Shown: positions 3,336-10,583 of the stretch, one piece after another
Layout of the letters: the number at the start of each line of letters is the position of its first letter
Numbering within the stretch: the stretch's first letter is position 1
Virus record (IMG/VR): IMGVR_UViG_3300027668_000115
Span: 1 to 22,191 of that record
Strand: one strand, 5' to 3'
Source of the DNA: a virus
DNA: 22,191 nucleotides
Notes under the pieces: model-generated
The model's input: the letters and a program-made list of their open reading frames with translations, nothing else
Database searches by the model: none
Told to the model about the DNA's origin: nothing
Translations under genes and position numbers: made by a program

Positions 3336-4438
3336 TGCCTATCCAACGCGGCTATAACCAGCAGAGTTACCTCCCTAACTATTTCCCACAAGACTACACC
3401 AGTCCCCAGGGCATGAGTCAGATGCAATCTAACATGGGCAACCTGCACATGTACGGACCTGATGGTAGTTTATTACCTGAGCACCAGCAAACAGTCGAAG
3501 ACCACATAGCTGGCGTCACCATGGCACCTGACCCTAACGGACGCTATGCACAAACGCCTCCACCCGTGCTCGGTACACCAGCAACTGGAGCAGCTACGCC
3601 TCCAGTGCTAACACAACAAGGTCCAGCACCTATTGTTGAATCTGTCGGCCAGGCACCAATGGACCCACAGCAAGCCGCAGCATTTGAAGCCGCTAATCCG
3701 CAAATCTATGACGACGACACTGAGGTCACCTCAGGTCGCCGCGATGGTACTCAGATGGGGCGGGCCAACAAGGGTAGTGGCTATCAAAAGATTGGGCTCA
3801 ACGAAAGACTGATACGCCTTGGGGGTGCCATGCAAGGCGCCAGCCACCTTGGCGGCAATGCCGCTATGGGCGCCTTCGGTAAAGAATACGCCAACATTCA
3901 AAATTCAGACCGCTCAGGTTTAGCAGCCTACGAGCAAAGCCAGATGGATTACCAGACTGCCCTGGCGAAAGCGCAGGGTGACGGTGGTGAAGCGCAAGAA
4001 ACTCTTATGCAGTACGACACAGCTATTGCTGAGATGGACTCCCTGTATAGCGAAATTGCGGGCTACGGTGATGACTTGACGGGTGTCAAAGACGGCACTG
4101 TCGATGCGTGGCTTGAAAATATGTCTGGCGACCCTAAGGCTTACACCAGGTTGCGTATGGAACAATTCCGCGTCGACCAGATGTTACTTTCTATCGCACA
4201 GACCAAGGGTGCAGTTTCCGATAGAGAGATGGCGATATTTGCTAAGCCAATGCCCACGATGGTGGCCGACGAAAAGGTTTGGTTAGACTGGATTAAAGCT
4301 AAAAGAGATGCAACGGCATCAGTTAGATATCGACTAGCGAATGGCGTCAGAGTTTCAAGTTCGCCCGCAGCGTCCAATCCACAAGCGACAACACAATATT
4401 CGCCAGAAGACCAAGCAATAATTGACCAATACAAGTAA
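3335..4438 (+). CDS. Probable internal virion / DNA-ejection protein (second of three)
   Basis: 367 residues, starting at an ATG that overlaps the previous stop (TGATG), so probably translationally coupled. The N-terminal ~130 residues are Pro/Gln/Gly-rich and probably disordered (PPPVLGTPATGAATPP and similar). From about residue 150 there is an ordered helical part: LIRLGGAMQGASHLGGNAAM, then a long alpha-helical segment with Gln, Glu and Ala (about 195-240) and a C-terminal helical region with the segment VWLDWIKAKRDAT (about 313-325). No enzyme motif is seen. It lies between two other probable ejection proteins, the same arrangement as P22 gp7/gp20/gp16 or T7 gp14/gp15/gp16. I do not recognise a specific family, so the function rests on position and composition. 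Confidence 0.6.
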   Translation: MPIQRGYNQQSYLPNYFPQDYTSPQGMSQMQSNMGNLHMYGPDGSLLPEHQQTVEDHIAGVTMAPDPNGRYAQTPPPVLGTPATGAATPPVLTQQGPAPIVESVGQAPMDPQQAAAFEAANPQIYDDDTEVTSGRRDGTQMGRANKGSGYQKIGLNERLIRLGGAMQGASHLGGNAAMGAFGKEYANIQNSDRSGLAAYEQSQMDYQTALAKAQGDGGEAQETLMQYDTAIAEMDSLYSEIAGYGDDLTGVKDGTVDAWLENMSGDPKAYTRLRMEQFRVDQMLLSIAQTKGAVSDREMAIFAKPMPTMVADEKVWLDWIKAKRDATASVRYRLANGVRVSSSPAASNPQATTQYSPEDQAIIDQYK

Positions 4439-4454
4439 TAAAAGGAATGCCCGT

Positions 4455-7400
4455 ATGTCTGGACAGTTAGAACAAGCAATTATCAATGCCCATAACGCAG
4501 GTGATTTTGCAGCTGCAAAGAGAATGGGTGAGCTGCTAAAGCAAGAAGCAGCAGCTGGTAATAATATGCAGGTCCAGCAAGGCGGTCAATATCAGTCACC
4601 TCTGCCTAGTCCACATGCCAACCAGGCACCGCCAAAAGACAATGCGTTTCAGTACGGTGTCGACCAGGCTCAGAACTTGTATGGTGGATTTGCAGAAGGC
4701 GTTGGTCAAAAAATTGGAAGCGAGACAATGGTCGCGCACGGTCAGAACGTGCAGGCGCAGCAAGAGAAAGACATCGCCAAAGGCGACTATCAGTTTAAGT
4801 ATGATGGTTTCAAAGACGCTGTTGAAAAGGACGGAGTTTCCGGATTTGCATCTCACGCTGGCTCAGCGGTAGCAGCAGGCTTACCTACAACAGGCGCAAC
4901 TTTAGTAGGCGGTGGTTTGACTGCCGCTGCAGCAGCATACAGTGCCCCTGCCTGGTTAGTTGCATCGCTGGGGGCGGCAACTACTGCTACAGGTATTGGC
5001 CTTGGAATTGGTGAAAATGTTCTTGAGCAGAAAGAAAAGACAGGAAAGTTTGACTCTGATGTAGCTATTGGAGTCGGTGTAGTCAGCGGCCTTCTTGACC
5101 GCCTGGGTGTGCGTAAGGTTTTTAACCTGAAAGACCTAGAAAAAATGACTTCCCAGCAAATTGCAGACACCCTTCGTAAAAAAGGTATGGGCGAAAAGGC
5201 TGCACAGTTTTTAAAAGGTATGGGCGTCGAGGCTGCCACAGAGACAGGCCAGGAAGGCCTCAATATGGCGGCAACGGCAACTCAAGGCGGTGAGTACACA
5301 GGCGAGGAAGTACAGCAGCGGCTAACTGATGCAGGTATTACAGGCGGCCTAATGGCTGGCACTATAAAAACAGGTACAGGCACTTTAGGTGCAGCAACTA
5401 ACCTGGTCCGAGGAAGCAACACAAGCTCAGCTCCTGCAGACCAGGAGGCCACAGCTTCTTTTGCTCAGCGACTAGCAGAGATAGCCGAGGCTAACGGCTA
5501 TGACCTTCAGGACATCGACAAAATGTCTTCTCAGGGTGCTCGAGAAACTGTAGACAAAGCTCACATTCAGTACACAGAAGACCTCAAGCAGCTATTTGCA
5601 GATTTGAAGTCTCGGGTAGCAGTCACGGACCAGGACAGTCTTGAAGAAGTGGCACAGAAAGTTCTTGCAGCAGCGGCTTACCGCGAAGGCCGTAACAAAA
5701 CTAAAAGTACTGTCGGTGTTCAAGAAATGTCAGCACTTGAATCTCTCTCAGGAGATACCAGAGAGGGTCAGCAGGCTCTATCTGTATTACGCCAGCTTAA
5801 CCAATTGACAAAGCTTCACAATGGTGGATATCAGGGTGGTGTCTCTGCAATTACAGACCAATTTGCCATAGCAGGGGGCGGTATAGGTTATGACAAAGGC
5901 GCTGTGGCGACAGAGCGTTTACTGCGTCCGTTGCTATCAGGAAGTGCTGCATTAAGCACTGGTGGTACCTCCCTCTTAGGTCAGGCGGCTGTGCAAGGAA
6001 CTGGCCGCATGATTGATAAAATTACTGGTCGTCGTTCTGTCGTCGATAGATTTGTAAAACAGAACCGAGGCCAGCCTGGTATCCCTGGCAGCACAAGTCC
6101 AAGTTTGCGTGAAGAAAGTATTGCGGAACAGCAAGCGGCATCTCAAGAAGCAGAAGCTCTCCAGGCACAGCAGGAAGCCCAGGCGCAAGAAGAAGCAAAC
6201 CTCAACGAATACGTCTATAACCAGGGCGGTCTTCCTAACGACCAAAGTCCTGCAGGCACGATGTCATCGGTCTTGGGGATAGACCCTGAGCAAATGATGA
6301 CGATGCTCGATGAAATTATTGCTACCGAGCCTAACCCTCAAATTGTTGACGCAGCTATTGCAGCTCAAGGTTCAATAGTTCAGGGAGGGCGTGTTCCAAA
6401 TCTGAACCAGCTAATTTCCATGATGAAGCTGCGGGTCAACCCTGACCCCCAGTTCTGGATAGAGCGCGACCGCTCAGCTGGACAGGCAGCTGCTAAGACT
6501 AAATTGAGCCGTCAGGAACAAAACTATCAGCGCGGCATTGAGAACAACCAGGCGTTTAACCAGGAGCTGCAGAATGCAGTTGATGACGACGGTAGCATCC
6601 CTCCGCTCAACAAGGCGTACCTAAAGGTTGCCCTGGCAGACCTAGCAAGAGATTTGGGCGCTCAGCCTCTCGACATGGTTAACTCGATTATTGAGAGAGC
6701 TGCCGAAAAAGGTGTAACCCAGGAACAGATGCAGTCGTACCTGGCACCGTACCTGGAGCGCGTACAGCAGCAGCAGGACGCTAAGAATAGCCGTGACCAG
6801 GCAGCAGCTGAGGTCGAAGCAGACCCAATCAATGAATCACGTGTGGTACCTGTGCCATTTAACAATGCAGGTATGCAGGGCGCGTTTGGTGTAGACCAGC
6901 CCACACCTGGCGGTAACTTTATCGACCTGGACACTAAAGCAGACCTTACAGGTAACACCTACGCAGGTGGTTCTGTCAAAATTATTGATGGTAAGCCACT
7001 GCTTGAGACCAGTGAGACTTCTGCAGCTCCAGCTACAAAAGAAAGCGGTAACAAAGTTAAGGTTAACCTGTTTAAGAAGAAAGCAGGATGGTCCTGGGTA
7101 GACTACGATGGACCAGATACGATTGTATCGACAGAACAAGGCGGCAAGCACCACTACAGCCTAAGCAGCGATTTCCAGACACCTGTGACTTTGCAGACAT
7201 ATCCGAACCAGCCGTCTGAGCCACGCCTGCGCCCAACCAGCCAGGGCAAAGTGGTCTTGGGTAACAAGATTGGCAGTATCTCCGTGCGAGGTAGACTTCA
7301 TCCTGTGTATGACCAGGTGGCTATCGAGGATAAGCGTGGCGTAGACCCTATCAATGAAAACAAGACGCCAGTGCTGCAGCTAGACACAAGTCCTTCCATT

Positions 7401-9842
7401 ATCCCTGTATTAAACGGCACAGAAACACCCCCAAAGCTATCAGGCAAAACAGAAGTAGCTAAATACCTTGAGTCTAGAGCACAAGACCGTATAGGCGGTG
7501 TGCGTGAAATTAGTATCCCAGAAGACCGTAGCGCGATTGCCGACGACATGGTTGCCGAAGCTATCTATGAGATGGAGCAGCAGGACGAAGGCAGTGCTAT
7601 GGATTGGTACGATTCAACCATCGAAAAAATGCTAGGCATGATGGCGCTGAAGTACCCTGAAATTGAAACTGACGTAAATGCTAAAACACCAATGCTTATT
7701 GCGCTGTCAATAATGTCTCAGAACATGGATGTGCCGACAAACCTAAAGATTGCCGAAAAAGCATATGAGTACTTCCGTGACAATGGCAAGTTCCAAATAT
7801 TCGGTCAGGGCAAAAGTTCTAAAGTTATGAAGTTAAACTTTAAAAAAGCCAATATTCTCCTAGAGAAACTTGGCTCTATGGATGCACTTGAAAAATTATT
7901 ACAAACCAAGTTTAGCGTTAAAGACCTCAACCCTGTGCTGCAGGCATATCTGGGTGAGATAGGTTCCGTAGGCGGTGAAAACGTAGATACTCAAGTTTAC
8001 GGCTCTGCTGTATTTGGGCCGAAAGTTGGTAATGGATTCTACACTAATCTACGCGGGGACTTTACCCCAGTCACTATGGACATGTGGTTCATGAGGACGG
8101 TTGGGCGCCTACGCGGTAAGGTGATGGCTTTTGATGAAACGAAGTTACAAGGTCAGCTCGATAAACTAAAGAGTGCTTTAGGACGTAAGCGGATTTCACG
8201 GGAAAAGCTGATTGAAGAAGCATTCAAACTTATTGCAAAACACGAAAAAGACTACAAAGTTAATCGTAAACTTTACGACCTCCCCAAAGGCAATGCTAAA
8301 AGAAAACAAAAGTCAAAAGCCACACTAGCAGCTTACACAATAAAAGGTTCACTCCGCGATACCGTCGATGCACCAGCTAACGGGACTGAAAGAAATGACC
8401 TACGCAAGTTGGTCCAGGAAGCAGTGGAAAAATTCAATACACGGACAGGGCTGGATATTGAGCCTGCTGCATTTCAAGCGTTGATATGGTACCCTGAACA
8501 GGACCTGTATAAGTCATTGGGCGTCCCGCTTAAAAATGTCCGTAAAGACTTTGCATCAAGTTTAAAAGAATTATTAATTAAGGAAGGTTTCAATGAAGCA
8601 GACCTCAACTCCACAATTGACCGAGTACAGCAGAGCCGAGAACAAAGAGCAGGAAGTGTTCGACAAAGCCCAGCTGAAAATGACGCCAGAAGCCCAGGAC
8701 GAAGCCCTGCAGAAACTGGTGGACCTGTTCAAGGCCAAACAGACCCAGTAAACCCCGCAATAAAACCAGGCACTGGCATCCTGTCCGGTGCTGTCTCTGA
8801 TTACTTCAAACAGCCCACCCCCGCTCAAATTAAAGAGCAGGTAGAACCCGCAGAAAAGGTTACCAAGTTTGTCCTGGGTAAGGCTGGTTCTGAGTTTGAA
8901 AACGGCATCTCAACTTATGACGATTTAGTCGACCTGGCAAACATGCTGGATGTTTCTGTGGAAATTGTGTCGGCATCAAAGATGCAAGACAAAGGCTCTA
9001 TGGGACAAATGCAGGCGATGCTTGAAGGCACTGCAGGGGAAATTAAAATACAGCCAGTCAAAAAGCTTGGACCTTTAGAGTTTATGAAAACTTTATCGCA
9101 TGAGGTGTCTCACGCATTAGAAGGCTTAAGTTTAGATGGGCTGCGTAGCGAAAGTACCTATAAATATAATGCCCACCCACAGGCGCGTGGTTCTCAAAAT
9201 GTAATGCGCCAAAGCTCTTTAAGGTCTCGTCTAAATGAGGTAATTGAACTTGCGTTTGCAGAGCCAGGAATGTTTTTCCAGAAAAAGCATGACTCAACAC
9301 CATCAGTTGAAGTCAGTAAAAAGATAGTCGCTGAGATTGATGAGCTTCAAAAGGGAACGATGGTTGGATTTGCTGATAAGCCTGAGTTAGGCCAGCAGCC
9401 TATGAGAGAGACTTTCCCTCAATTTACGCGAGCCACGTTGGAATTTAATGTACCACTGCCTAAGAACGCCTCAGCAACGCAGATAGCAGCCAGAGAAGCT
9501 GAAATAGCTAAGATGGGCTCTAACGCAGGCGCCGCTCAGCAGATGGCTAAAAAGTTTGGCGGCTACCATGCCTACATCAAAGAAACCGCAGAGTTCGGTG
9601 TAGACCCTTTGCATTTTTACTTGATGGACCCTAAAGGCATGAAGAAGATGATGCCTGAAACCTTTAAGTTCATGCGCGATATATTCAACAAAAGCTCAAT
9701 GCCAATTGAGATGCATGCTAATCCTATGATGACAGTAATCGCACTGTTACTCGCAGGCTTCGGCAAAGCATTGTCTGGAGAAGAAGAGGAAGAGAGCCCC
9801 CAGGGCGCCCTAGCACCTCAGCCAGGAATGCTTACAACCTAA
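4455..9842 (+). CDS. Giant internal virion / DNA-ejection protein with HExxH motif
   Basis: About 1,795 residues from the ATG at 4455, chosen because AAGGA (4441-4445) is correctly spaced and the protein then begins with a helical motif (INAHNAGDFAAAKRMGELL) common at the start of phage virion proteins. An in-frame ATG at 4422 lies inside the preceding gene without a good ribosome site. Visible regions: hydrophobic Ala/Gly-rich segment at about 130-200, possibly membrane-active; Gln/Glu/Ala coiled coil at about 550-592; conserved-looking block at about 1059-1222 ending near TPVTMDMWFMRTVGRL, recalling domains of large polyvalent phage proteins; Ser/Pro/Arg/Gln-rich disordered linker at about 1393-1430; zinc-peptidase-like HEVSH at about 1549-1553; hydrophobic segment MTVIALLLAGFGKAL near the C terminus. 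Probably ejected with DNA and forms or modifies the channel through the cell envelope. A separate out-of-frame ORF lies within the linker. Confidence 0.75.
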   Translation: MSGQLEQAIINAHNAGDFAAAKRMGELLKQEAAAGNNMQVQQGGQYQSPLPSPHANQAPPKDNAFQYGVDQAQNLYGGFAEGVGQKIGSETMVAHGQNVQAQQEKDIAKGDYQFKYDGFKDAVEKDGVSGFASHAGSAVAAGLPTTGATLVGGGLTAAAAAYSAPAWLVASLGAATTATGIGLGIGENVLEQKEKTGKFDSDVAIGVGVVSGLLDRLGVRKVFNLKDLEKMTSQQIADTLRKKGMGEKAAQFLKGMGVEAATETGQEGLNMAATATQGGEYTGEEVQQRLTDAGITGGLMAGTIKTGTGTLGAATNLVRGSNTSSAPADQEATASFAQRLAEIAEANGYDLQDIDKMSSQGARETVDKAHIQYTEDLKQLFADLKSRVAVTDQDSLEEVAQKVLAAAAYREGRNKTKSTVGVQEMSALESLSGDTREGQQALSVLRQLNQLTKLHNGGYQGGVSAITDQFAIAGGGIGYDKGAVATERLLRPLLSGSAALSTGGTSLLGQAAVQGTGRMIDKITGRRSVVDRFVKQNRGQPGIPGSTSPSLREESIAEQQAASQEAEALQAQQEAQAQEEANLNEYVYNQGGLPNDQSPAGTMSSVLGIDPEQMMTMLDEIIATEPNPQIVDAAIAAQGSIVQGGRVPNLNQLISMMKLRVNPDPQFWIERDRSAGQAAAKTKLSRQEQNYQRGIENNQAFNQELQNAVDDDGSIPPLNKAYLKVALADLARDLGAQPLDMVNSIIERAAEKGVTQEQMQSYLAPYLERVQQQQDAKNSRDQAAAEVEADPINESRVVPVPFNNAGMQGAFGVDQPTPGGNFIDLDTKADLTGNTYAGGSVKIIDGKPLLETSETSAAPATKESGNKVKVNLFKKKAGWSWVDYDGPDTIVSTEQGGKHHYSLSSDFQTPVTLQTYPNQPSEPRLRPTSQGKVVLGNKIGSISVRGRLHPVYDQVAIEDKRGVDPINENKTPVLQLDTSPSIIPVLNGTETPPKLSGKTEVAKYLESRAQDRIGGVREISIPEDRSAIADDMVAEAIYEMEQQDEGSAMDWYDSTIEKMLGMMALKYPEIETDVNAKTPMLIALSIMSQNMDVPTNLKIAEKAYEYFRDNGKFQIFGQGKSSKVMKLNFKKANILLEKLGSMDALEKLLQTKFSVKDLNPVLQAYLGEIGSVGGENVDTQVYGSAVFGPKVGNGFYTNLRGDFTPVTMDMWFMRTVGRLRGKVMAFDETKLQGQLDKLKSALGRKRISREKLIEEAFKLIAKHEKDYKVNRKLYDLPKGNAKRKQKSKATLAAYTIKGSLRDTVDAPANGTERNDLRKLVQEAVEKFNTRTGLDIEPAAFQALIWYPEQDLYKSLGVPLKNVRKDFASSLKELLIKEGFNEADLNSTIDRVQQSREQRAGSVRQSPAENDARSPGRSPAETGGPVQGQTDPVNPAIKPGTGILSGAVSDYFKQPTPAQIKEQVEPAEKVTKFVLGKAGSEFENGISTYDDLVDLANMLDVSVEIVSASKMQDKGSMGQMQAMLEGTAGEIKIQPVKKLGPLEFMKTLSHEVSHALEGLSLDGLRSESTYKYNAHPQARGSQNVMRQSSLRSRLNEVIELAFAEPGMFFQKKHDSTPSVEVSKKIVAEIDELQKGTMVGFADKPELGQQPMRETFPQFTRATLEFNVPLPKNASATQIAAREAEIAKMGSNAGAAQQMAKKFGGYHAYIKETAEFGVDPLHFYLMDPKGMKKMMPETFKFMRDIFNKSSMPIEMHANPMMTVIALLLAGFGKALSGEEEEESPQGALAPQPGMLTT
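8593..8751 (+). CDS. Candidate nested out-of-frame small gene (52 aa)
   Basis: This ORF lies inside the giant virion-protein gene in the +1 frame relative to it. It begins with ATG at 8593, has AAGGAAGG at 8580-8587 (five bases before the start) and ends at TAA 8749-8751. The product begins MKQTSTPQLTEYSRAENKEQ and ends ALQKLVDLFKAKQTQ. It is charged, has no rare-residue bias and predicts as helical, unlike most chance ORFs. The main frame over the same bases is a low-complexity Ser/Pro/Arg/Gln/Gly linker, as expected when a second frame constrains the sequence. The codons end mostly in G or C. I know no homologue. It could be chance, but the ribosome site, protein-like composition and position in a disordered linker argue for an overprinted gene. 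Confidence 0.42.
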   Translation: MKQTSTPQLTEYSRAENKEQEVFDKAQLKMTPEAQDEALQKLVDLFKAKQTQ

Positions 9843-9853
9843 GGAAAAACCCA

Positions 9854-10147
9854 ATGAAAGTGAGAGCAAGTGATTTGGTGGATGCAATTCGCCAGGTGGA
9901 GTTTATTAAGTCGTCAACCGTTTTAAGTCCGGAGCAAAAACAAGTGTTCTATCGAGAGTTGGAAAACAACTTGCCGTTAGTCATTTTCTGTAGCTCATTT
10001 CCAAAAATGCGCCAGGTTGCCCAAGACATTTTGAAAGTGGAGATAAAAGATGACAGACCTAAGCCCGCCGAAGCCAAGAGCCCCGCGCAAAAAAGCACCC
10101 CCAAAAGCAAAGACCCATCCAAAAAAAGCAACGCCAAAAGAGAATAA
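9854..10147 (+). CDS. Small basic-tailed hypothetical protein upstream of terminase
   Basis: 97 residues with AAGGA at 9842-9846 upstream of the ATG. Residues 1-65 look like a compact helical domain (SDLVDAIRQVEFIKSSTVLS, then QKQVFYRELENNLPLVIF). Residues 70-97 are a Lys/Pro/Ser-rich tail that is double-coding with the start of the next gene for 98 bases (10050-10147). No family recognised. Its place directly before the terminase genes suggests a packaging or DNA-binding accessory, but the basic tail alone is weak support. Confidence 0.55.
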   Translation: MKVRASDLVDAIRQVEFIKSSTVLSPEQKQVFYRELENNLPLVIFCSSFPKMRQVAQDILKVEIKDDRPKPAEAKSPAQKSTPKSKDPSKKSNAKRE

Positions 10148-10583
10148 CTACTTTACCAATCTGATGAAAACGCCTGAAGGACGGGCGCTACGGAAAGAAT
10201 GGTCTACGAAGAAGCGTAAGAACGGAGGCCGTCCACAGGGCGTTCCGGATGGGCACACGGTGGAATCAATTAAGCCAGTACGTGAGAAGGCTAAAAGAGA
10301 CGCAGAGAAGGTAGTCAAGATTATGAGCGAAAAGTACAACATTGAAGATGAGTATCAGAAAGAAGCCCTTAAGACGGCTGTTGAGGTAATGCGAATCGAC
10401 GGACAAACTCGAGAGAGACTTGCCGCTGCCAGACTGGTACTGGACTTTACCAAAAGTAAGCCAGCGTCAAAATCAGATGTGTCTATTAGCCACGCTGAAG
10501 ATTTCCTGGCCTCCCTGCTAACAGACGAAGGAGAGAGCGTCGATGAACAAACAGCTGAAGCAGGTCCGGAAGAAACTACTTAA
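10050..10583 (+). CDS. Terminase small subunit (probable)
   Basis: 177 residues. The first ~30 are a Lys/Pro/Ala-rich basic arm, followed by KTPEGRALRKEWSTKKRKNGGRPQGVPDG, a basic DNA-binding-like segment shown here in pieces: GRALRKEWSTKK and GGRPQGVPDG (about residues 43-68). A helical core follows (EALKTAVEVMRIDGQTRERL, then AARLVLDFTK), the pattern I associate with small terminase subunits of marine phages. The start at 10050 is supported by GTGGAGA at 10037-10043; an alternative ATG at 10164 would avoid the overlap with the preceding gene but lacks a ribosome site. The last 41 bases overlap the large-terminase gene, typical of a TerS-TerL pair. It would recognise phage DNA and present it to TerL. 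Role is inferred mainly from position and composition. Confidence 0.72.
   Translation: MTDLSPPKPRAPRKKAPPKAKTHPKKATPKENNYFTNLMKTPEGRALRKEWSTKKRKNGGRPQGVPDGHTVESIKPVREKAKRDAEKVVKIMSEKYNIEDEYQKEALKTAVEVMRIDGQTRERLAAARLVLDFTKSKPASKSDVSISHAEDFLASLLTDEGESVDEQTAEAGPEETT

Follow-up and report, generated by a model that had tools for sequence, protein, structure and literature searches.

A conserved small gene in an alternative reading frame of the gene for a giant, polyvalent-like phage protein

We analyzed a 22,191-base virus contig (the window) that carries terminase, portal, scaffold, major head, tail, and tail-fibre genes. A 52-codon open reading frame (ORF) on its plus strand, at positions 8593 to 8751, is almost certainly a real, functional gene, judging from the conservation described below. 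It lies wholly within a much larger plus-strand gene (4422 to 9842; 1806 codons, first possible start TTG) and is in the +1 frame relative to it. The larger gene sits in the structural gene module and looks like one that encodes a giant phage protein of the polyvalent type. A preliminary description of this DNA had reported a Shine-Dalgarno sequence (AAGGAAGG) at 8580 to 8587, an ATG at 8593, a TAA at 8749, and no internal stop, and we confirmed each of these. The Shine-Dalgarno sequence ends 5 nt before the ATG and doubles as Lys-Glu-Gly codons of the giant protein. The TAA occupies 8749 to 8751, and a backup in-frame TAA (8761 to 8763) is 12 nt downstream of it. Two relatives (L005 and L006) have CAA in place of the first TAA and use the next one as the stop, which gives a nested product of 56 residues.

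The 52-residue product of the nested gene is MKQTSTPQLTEYSRAENKEQEVFDKAQLKMTPEAQDEALQKLVDLFKAKQTQ, predicted to be a small two-helix protein. Across the same DNA, the host frame encodes NEADLNSTIDRVQQSREQRAGSVRQSPAENDARSPGRSPAETGGPVQGQTDPVN. This is a Ser/Pro/Arg/Gln/Gly linker (8592 to 8753) that is read through the nested gene. Upstream of the linker, the giant protein has a conserved, all-helical domain of 374 residues (7470 to 8591), which always precedes the nested gene. The domain contains a WYPEQDLY motif (8487 to 8510), and in most close relatives there are 35 codons from its Trp to the nested start.

The ORF of the window, taken alone, is not improbable. When host-frame codons were re-drawn synonymously, 18% of the draws kept the +1 frame open, as did 12% of host-frame codon permutations, and the length of the ORF is weak evidence for a gene. 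This much would fit the alternative that 8593 to 8751 is not a gene but is open by chance or codon bias, with its DNA conserved for RNA structure, packaging, or a recombination site. The ORF is significant because its frame is kept in nearly every relative that we examined and because codon conservation is position specific and bounded by the start and stop.

Near relatives of the window were taken from IMG/VR. Relatives were found mainly with the host-frame domain just upstream (window positions 7470 to 8600, alignment A1), not with the ORF. A scan with this domain gave at least 590 related stretches, and we retained the best 80; further loci came from two more scans, for which the queries were distant forms of the domain. 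The queries were domain peptides, so these scans do not select for the nested frame. The preliminary description had made its proposal depend on the retention of the start, Shine-Dalgarno sequence, and open frame in relatives, and they are indeed retained. At the nested place, 161 of 166 distinct loci had a +1 ORF that begins with ATG or GTG and is at least 42 codons long (the scanned range of starts was codons 20 to 64 after the WYPE motif). In contrast, none of the 166 loci had such an ORF in the +2 frame, and only 38 had one in the +1 frame 150 codons upstream. The five exceptions can be explained. Three loci (L040, L216, and L232) have TTG starts, one (L226) has its start at codon 18, which is two codons short of the scanned range, and the fifth (L223) has a small-protein-like sequence in the host frame, fused to the domain. 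In most sequences of the window's large clades, the nested start is at codon 35 after WYPE and is usually ATG. The nested gene was present in every sampled deep lineage, behind the same 374-residue domain, and the identity of this flanking domain falls to about 27% across the lineages that keep the gene.

The constraint on this DNA changes frame where the nested gene begins and ends. Comparison of the window with L003 gave 12, 5, and 44 differences at host codon positions 1, 2, and 3 upstream of the ORF and 7, 2, and 1 inside it. Between the window and L005, the numbers were 18, 9, and 66 upstream and 15, 5, and 3 inside. For 26 disjoint pairs, they were 471, 301, and 1568 upstream, 360, 230, and 228 in the ORF, and 215, 135, and 460 downstream. 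The constraint leaves the host frame between 8579 and 8592 and has returned to it by 8768, just past the second stop. Host-frame synonymous variation collapses exactly over the segment, as the preliminary description had anticipated for an overprinted gene. Host-frame codon identity at conserved degenerate residues was 0.678 upstream, 0.896 in the ORF, and 0.686 downstream (P = 4e-53, a value that assumes independent codons and is to be read as "very strong" rather than literally), and the rise was confined to about codons 35 to 89 after WYPE. A separate analysis of the DC33-like clade (22 pairs) gave 0.679, 0.872, and 0.712 for the same three regions. Finally, an N/S-like ratio for close pairs (a rough index rather than a fitted model, with some sequences in more than one pair) was 0.39 in the nested frame; in the host frame, it was 1.20 within the ORF and 0.16 upstream.

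Together, the codon-position differences, codon identities, and N/S-like ratios indicate that the nested protein is under purifying selection. They also indicate that the host linker is nearly free in sequence while staying open, so that its exact sequence hardly matters. The preliminary description had supposed that the host frame here tolerates almost anything, and the ratio of 1.20 bears this out. These data leave little room for the alternative that there is no gene. The segment is not invariant but differs among relatives at third positions of the nested frame. The ratio of 0.39 and the rarity of such ORFs in the control frames also argue against it. We rejected chance openness because the position-specific pattern of variation contradicts it, and we consider it extremely improbable that 8593 to 8751 is anything other than a gene.

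The nested gene very probably has its own translation start. The duplex with the anti-Shine-Dalgarno sequence at the nested start of the window was -9.0 kcal/mol. At 67 distinct nested starts the mean was -7.4 kcal/mol, compared with -2.5 kcal/mol at other +1 ATGs, and pairing of -5 kcal/mol or lower was found at 94% of nested starts, compared with 12% of other +1 ATGs. A +1 stop was located no more than 10 codons upstream of the nested start in 41 of the 67 and immediately before the nested ATG in L048 and L238/L239. Because of this strong pairing and the nearby upstream stops, we favor independent initiation over frameshifting. Programmed +1 frameshifting on the giant gene would yield a shortened giant protein that has a different C terminus. 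The nested frame is indeed the +1 frame, and a Shine-Dalgarno-like sequence inside a gene can promote +1 frameshifting, as in prfB. However, a conserved ATG or GTG heads the constrained segment, whereas the bases preceding it vary (TTTCA, TTTCG, GTACA, TACG, and TATG). In addition to the close upstream stops, some relatives have the same small gene as an ordinary cistron in a split layout (see below). For these reasons we rejected programmed frameshifting, which we regard as highly unlikely.

We used AlphaFold2 on 51 sequences to predict the structure of the nested product. Residues 18 to 29 and 32 to 51 were predicted to form two helices (block pLDDT, 88 to 94), and the N terminus was predicted with low confidence. 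With these two confidently predicted helices and its low N/S-like ratio, the nested product does appear to be the structured and constrained one of the two, as had been suggested. The best-conserved residues, N17 and Q20, are just before and in the first helix. The 52-residue product has no Cys, no hydrophobic signal, and only 2 Pro. Many members of the DC33-like clade, plus L070 and L093 of another clade, have a C-terminal extension like ...GLTREEAEEMAEAFGF. A recurrent C-terminal peptide, ...NPGLTREEAEEMAEAFGF, ends many of the longer nested proteins (L070, L093, L013, and most of L140 to L214) and resembles a docking or packaging tag.

The 52-residue protein had no convincing family in Pfam, PHROGs, NCBIfam, or PDB, and it had no match among viral folds. 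A match to phage KLEP17-4 in phage records was discarded because it was at chance level (E = 5) and in an unrelated context. A DNA-level search of phage records for the segment found no match. A search with a nested peptide pattern found 42 loci, all at the nested place, although this pattern was built from one subclade and distant copies elsewhere could escape it. The preliminary description knew of no described counterpart, and we likewise found none in these databases or in the literature searched, which missed most subscription papers.

The nested product is also encoded by Limnohabitans phage DC33 (PQ492659.1, our locus L013), where the ATG is at L013:5109 and the peptide begins MNAQDEHDYRMSKLRSLEGSRPK... 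This 39-kb record has an Inoviridae taxonomy line. The giant protein of DC33 matches tailed-phage relatives, and the Inoviridae line is probably a misclassification. Three deposited phage records (PQ492659, MW202640, and MW202722) list the giant gene but not the nested gene, probably because gene callers suppress overlaps.

The 374-residue domain of the giant protein was confidently predicted as an all-helical fold (pLDDT, 92), using an alignment that excluded three phage-record rows. The domain occurs in only three phage records. It had no fold match in the PDB and no recognized catalytic motif. Its viral fold matches are labelled "large polyvalent protein associated," ART-PolyVal, and RelA/SpoT. 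However, what matched in these cases was the helical domain rather than the enzyme domains that the labels name. Pfam DUF7178 and phrog_3842 have weak similarity to the domain in some relatives, and no confident Pfam domain was found in the giant protein of the window. Like the polyvalent proteins of phages and conjugative elements (PMC5512222), the host gene is giant, multidomain, and near structural genes, and the fold relatives of its domain carry polyvalent-type labels. In two annotated relatives, a lysozyme or M23 peptidase gene is directly upstream of the giant gene.

There were two other features of this region of the window. The downstream part of the giant protein contains HEVSH (9099 to 9113), an HExxH sequence that resembles a zinc-metallopeptidase motif, and this part had no Pfam match. 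Just after the giant gene are two small ORFs (9854 to 10147 and 10050 to 10583), which are in different frames, share about 98 bases, and had no family match.

The host gene differs considerably between relatives beyond the nested gene. The length of the host protein downstream of it varies between about 110 and more than 1,600 codons. The sequences of L005 and L006 scarcely differ through the domain and the nested gene and then diverge abruptly from about window position 8900, which would fit replacement of the downstream part of the giant gene by recombination. In some loci (L229 to L231, L233, L238, and L239), the domain gene ends 45 to 48 codons after WYPE. The small gene of these loci is an ordinary cistron whose overlap is short, and another large gene comes next. 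The layout of L222 is also split. In L223, the domain has an in-frame tail that is similar to the small protein (E = 8e-4; the best of 999 shuffles was 0.72). This small-protein-like sequence, at L223:3916-4239, is YHPWQDEDEEDQTHMSDEQARKFAQRIKA, and the gene ends there.

These layouts bear on the history of the arrangement. In a domain tree of 102 rows, which is unrooted (no outgroup), the open (nested) layout occurred in all deep clades and three changes of layout were sufficient. The split layout might suggest that the giant gene arose by fusion across a small gene that was there first, but the tree, unrooted as it is, instead places the nested layout deep. The preliminary description had interpreted the locus as overprinting, with the nested gene as the new one. 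The first part stands, in that there is an out-of-frame, constrained gene. The second part is one possibility among others, because the nested gene is in every sampled deep lineage, is sometimes a separate cistron, and once appears fused.

What might the small protein do? We propose that ribosomes would start independently at 8593 on the giant-gene mRNA, so that a helical protein of about 52 residues would be made alongside the giant protein. This small protein would be a dedicated partner that binds the 374-residue helical domain encoded just upstream. It would escort or shield the domain up to the loading of the giant protein into the virion and its ejection into the next host, and the host-frame linker would be a flexible connector. 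The fixed linkage to one domain and the possible fusion in L223 suggest a physical partnership, and the structural module and polyvalent class suggest a role in loading or ejection. The polyvalent-protein class is predicted to be packaged and injected (PMC5512222), and packaging of the giant protein in the virion, with later ejection, is presumed here. In favor of the partner role, the nested gene follows one domain in all deep clades while the downstream part of the host protein varies. However, the L223 fusion is one sequence with an E value of 8e-4, and the linkage could instead reflect an overlap that is immovable. The partner or escort role is a serious possibility that falls slightly short of being probable. 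For the combined proposal of a real gene, independent initiation, and a partner or escort role, we consider the chances evenly balanced, with the role as its weakest part.

Two other roles deserve consideration. The nested protein might be an antitoxin-like inhibitor of an enzymatic part of the giant protein in the producing cell, and ejection would then lose it or leave it in that cell. Inhibitors commonly take the form of small helical proteins that are co-encoded, and the fold relatives of the flanking domain include ART-PolyVal- and RelA/SpoT-labelled proteins. Polyvalent proteins also carry host-modifying enzyme domains (PMC5512222). However, an inhibitor is expected to track the toxic part, whereas the nested gene is kept with an all-helical domain that lacks a catalytic motif while the downstream part changes. 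A similar sequence is also fused to that domain in L223. We think that inhibition is unlikely. Alternatively, the small protein might be an independent virion accessory or early effector that shares DNA with the giant gene without acting on its product. It is small, charged, helical, and encoded in a late structural region, where a linker can host a gene at little cost, and variable C-terminal extensions such as the ...GLTREEAEEMAEAFGF type suggest lineage-specific contacts. Even so, it is linked to the same domain down to about 27% domain identity, the search with its own motif found it nowhere else, and the pair stays together even though the layout can split or fuse. This explanation also seems improbable to us.

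Returning to the partner role, a broader and more tentative idea is that the helical "polyvalent-associated" domain and an obligate small partner form an ancient two-protein module of tailed phages. The partner would be encoded out of frame in the linker behind the domain, and the module would move as one DNA unit between giant proteins that differ in their downstream parts and would represent a new class of loading or ejection helper. The nested gene, separate cistron, and in-frame fusion would then be three layouts of the same small protein, an extension that we consider somewhat less likely than not.

Rz1 is among the best-known examples of a nested gene in a tailed phage. In the lambda Rz/Rz1 spanins, a small +1 gene with its own start is embedded in a larger gene, and the two products cooperate (PMC5295617). 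The gene described here is likewise embedded in the +1 frame with its own conserved initiation signal. However, Rz1 is an outer membrane lysis lipoprotein, whereas the nested protein has no signal or lipobox by eye and is charged and helical; neither the lipobox Cys nor the proline-rich body of an Rz1-like o-spanin was found in the 52-residue sequence. Here the larger gene is a giant one of the structural module, and there is no homology to Rz/Rz1. In podoviruses, T7 gp6.7 and gp7.3 are small virion proteins that accompany large internal or ejection proteins. Their genes are separate in T7, not nested, and the family libraries gave no homology. For phage P1, deletion of Hdf or DarA excludes other Dar proteins, including DarB, from the head (PMC12810830). 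Hdf is thus a helper for the entry of large ejected proteins into the head, an analogy of mechanism only; Hdf is larger, has its own gene, and had no detected sequence link with the nested protein.

Out-of-frame nested phage genes are a known kind, but the protein family, the host gene, and the three layouts reported here appear to be new. The nested gene spans very diverged lineages, being present at about 165 of the 166 distinct loci from public contigs, and it supplies a component that had been missing from a widespread class of giant proteins, which are presumably ejected. The locus is also a natural system for studying how a single stretch of DNA can encode a constrained protein in one frame and, in the other, a linker that is almost free. 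Limnohabitans phage DC33 is a cultured carrier, which makes both the product and its role directly testable.
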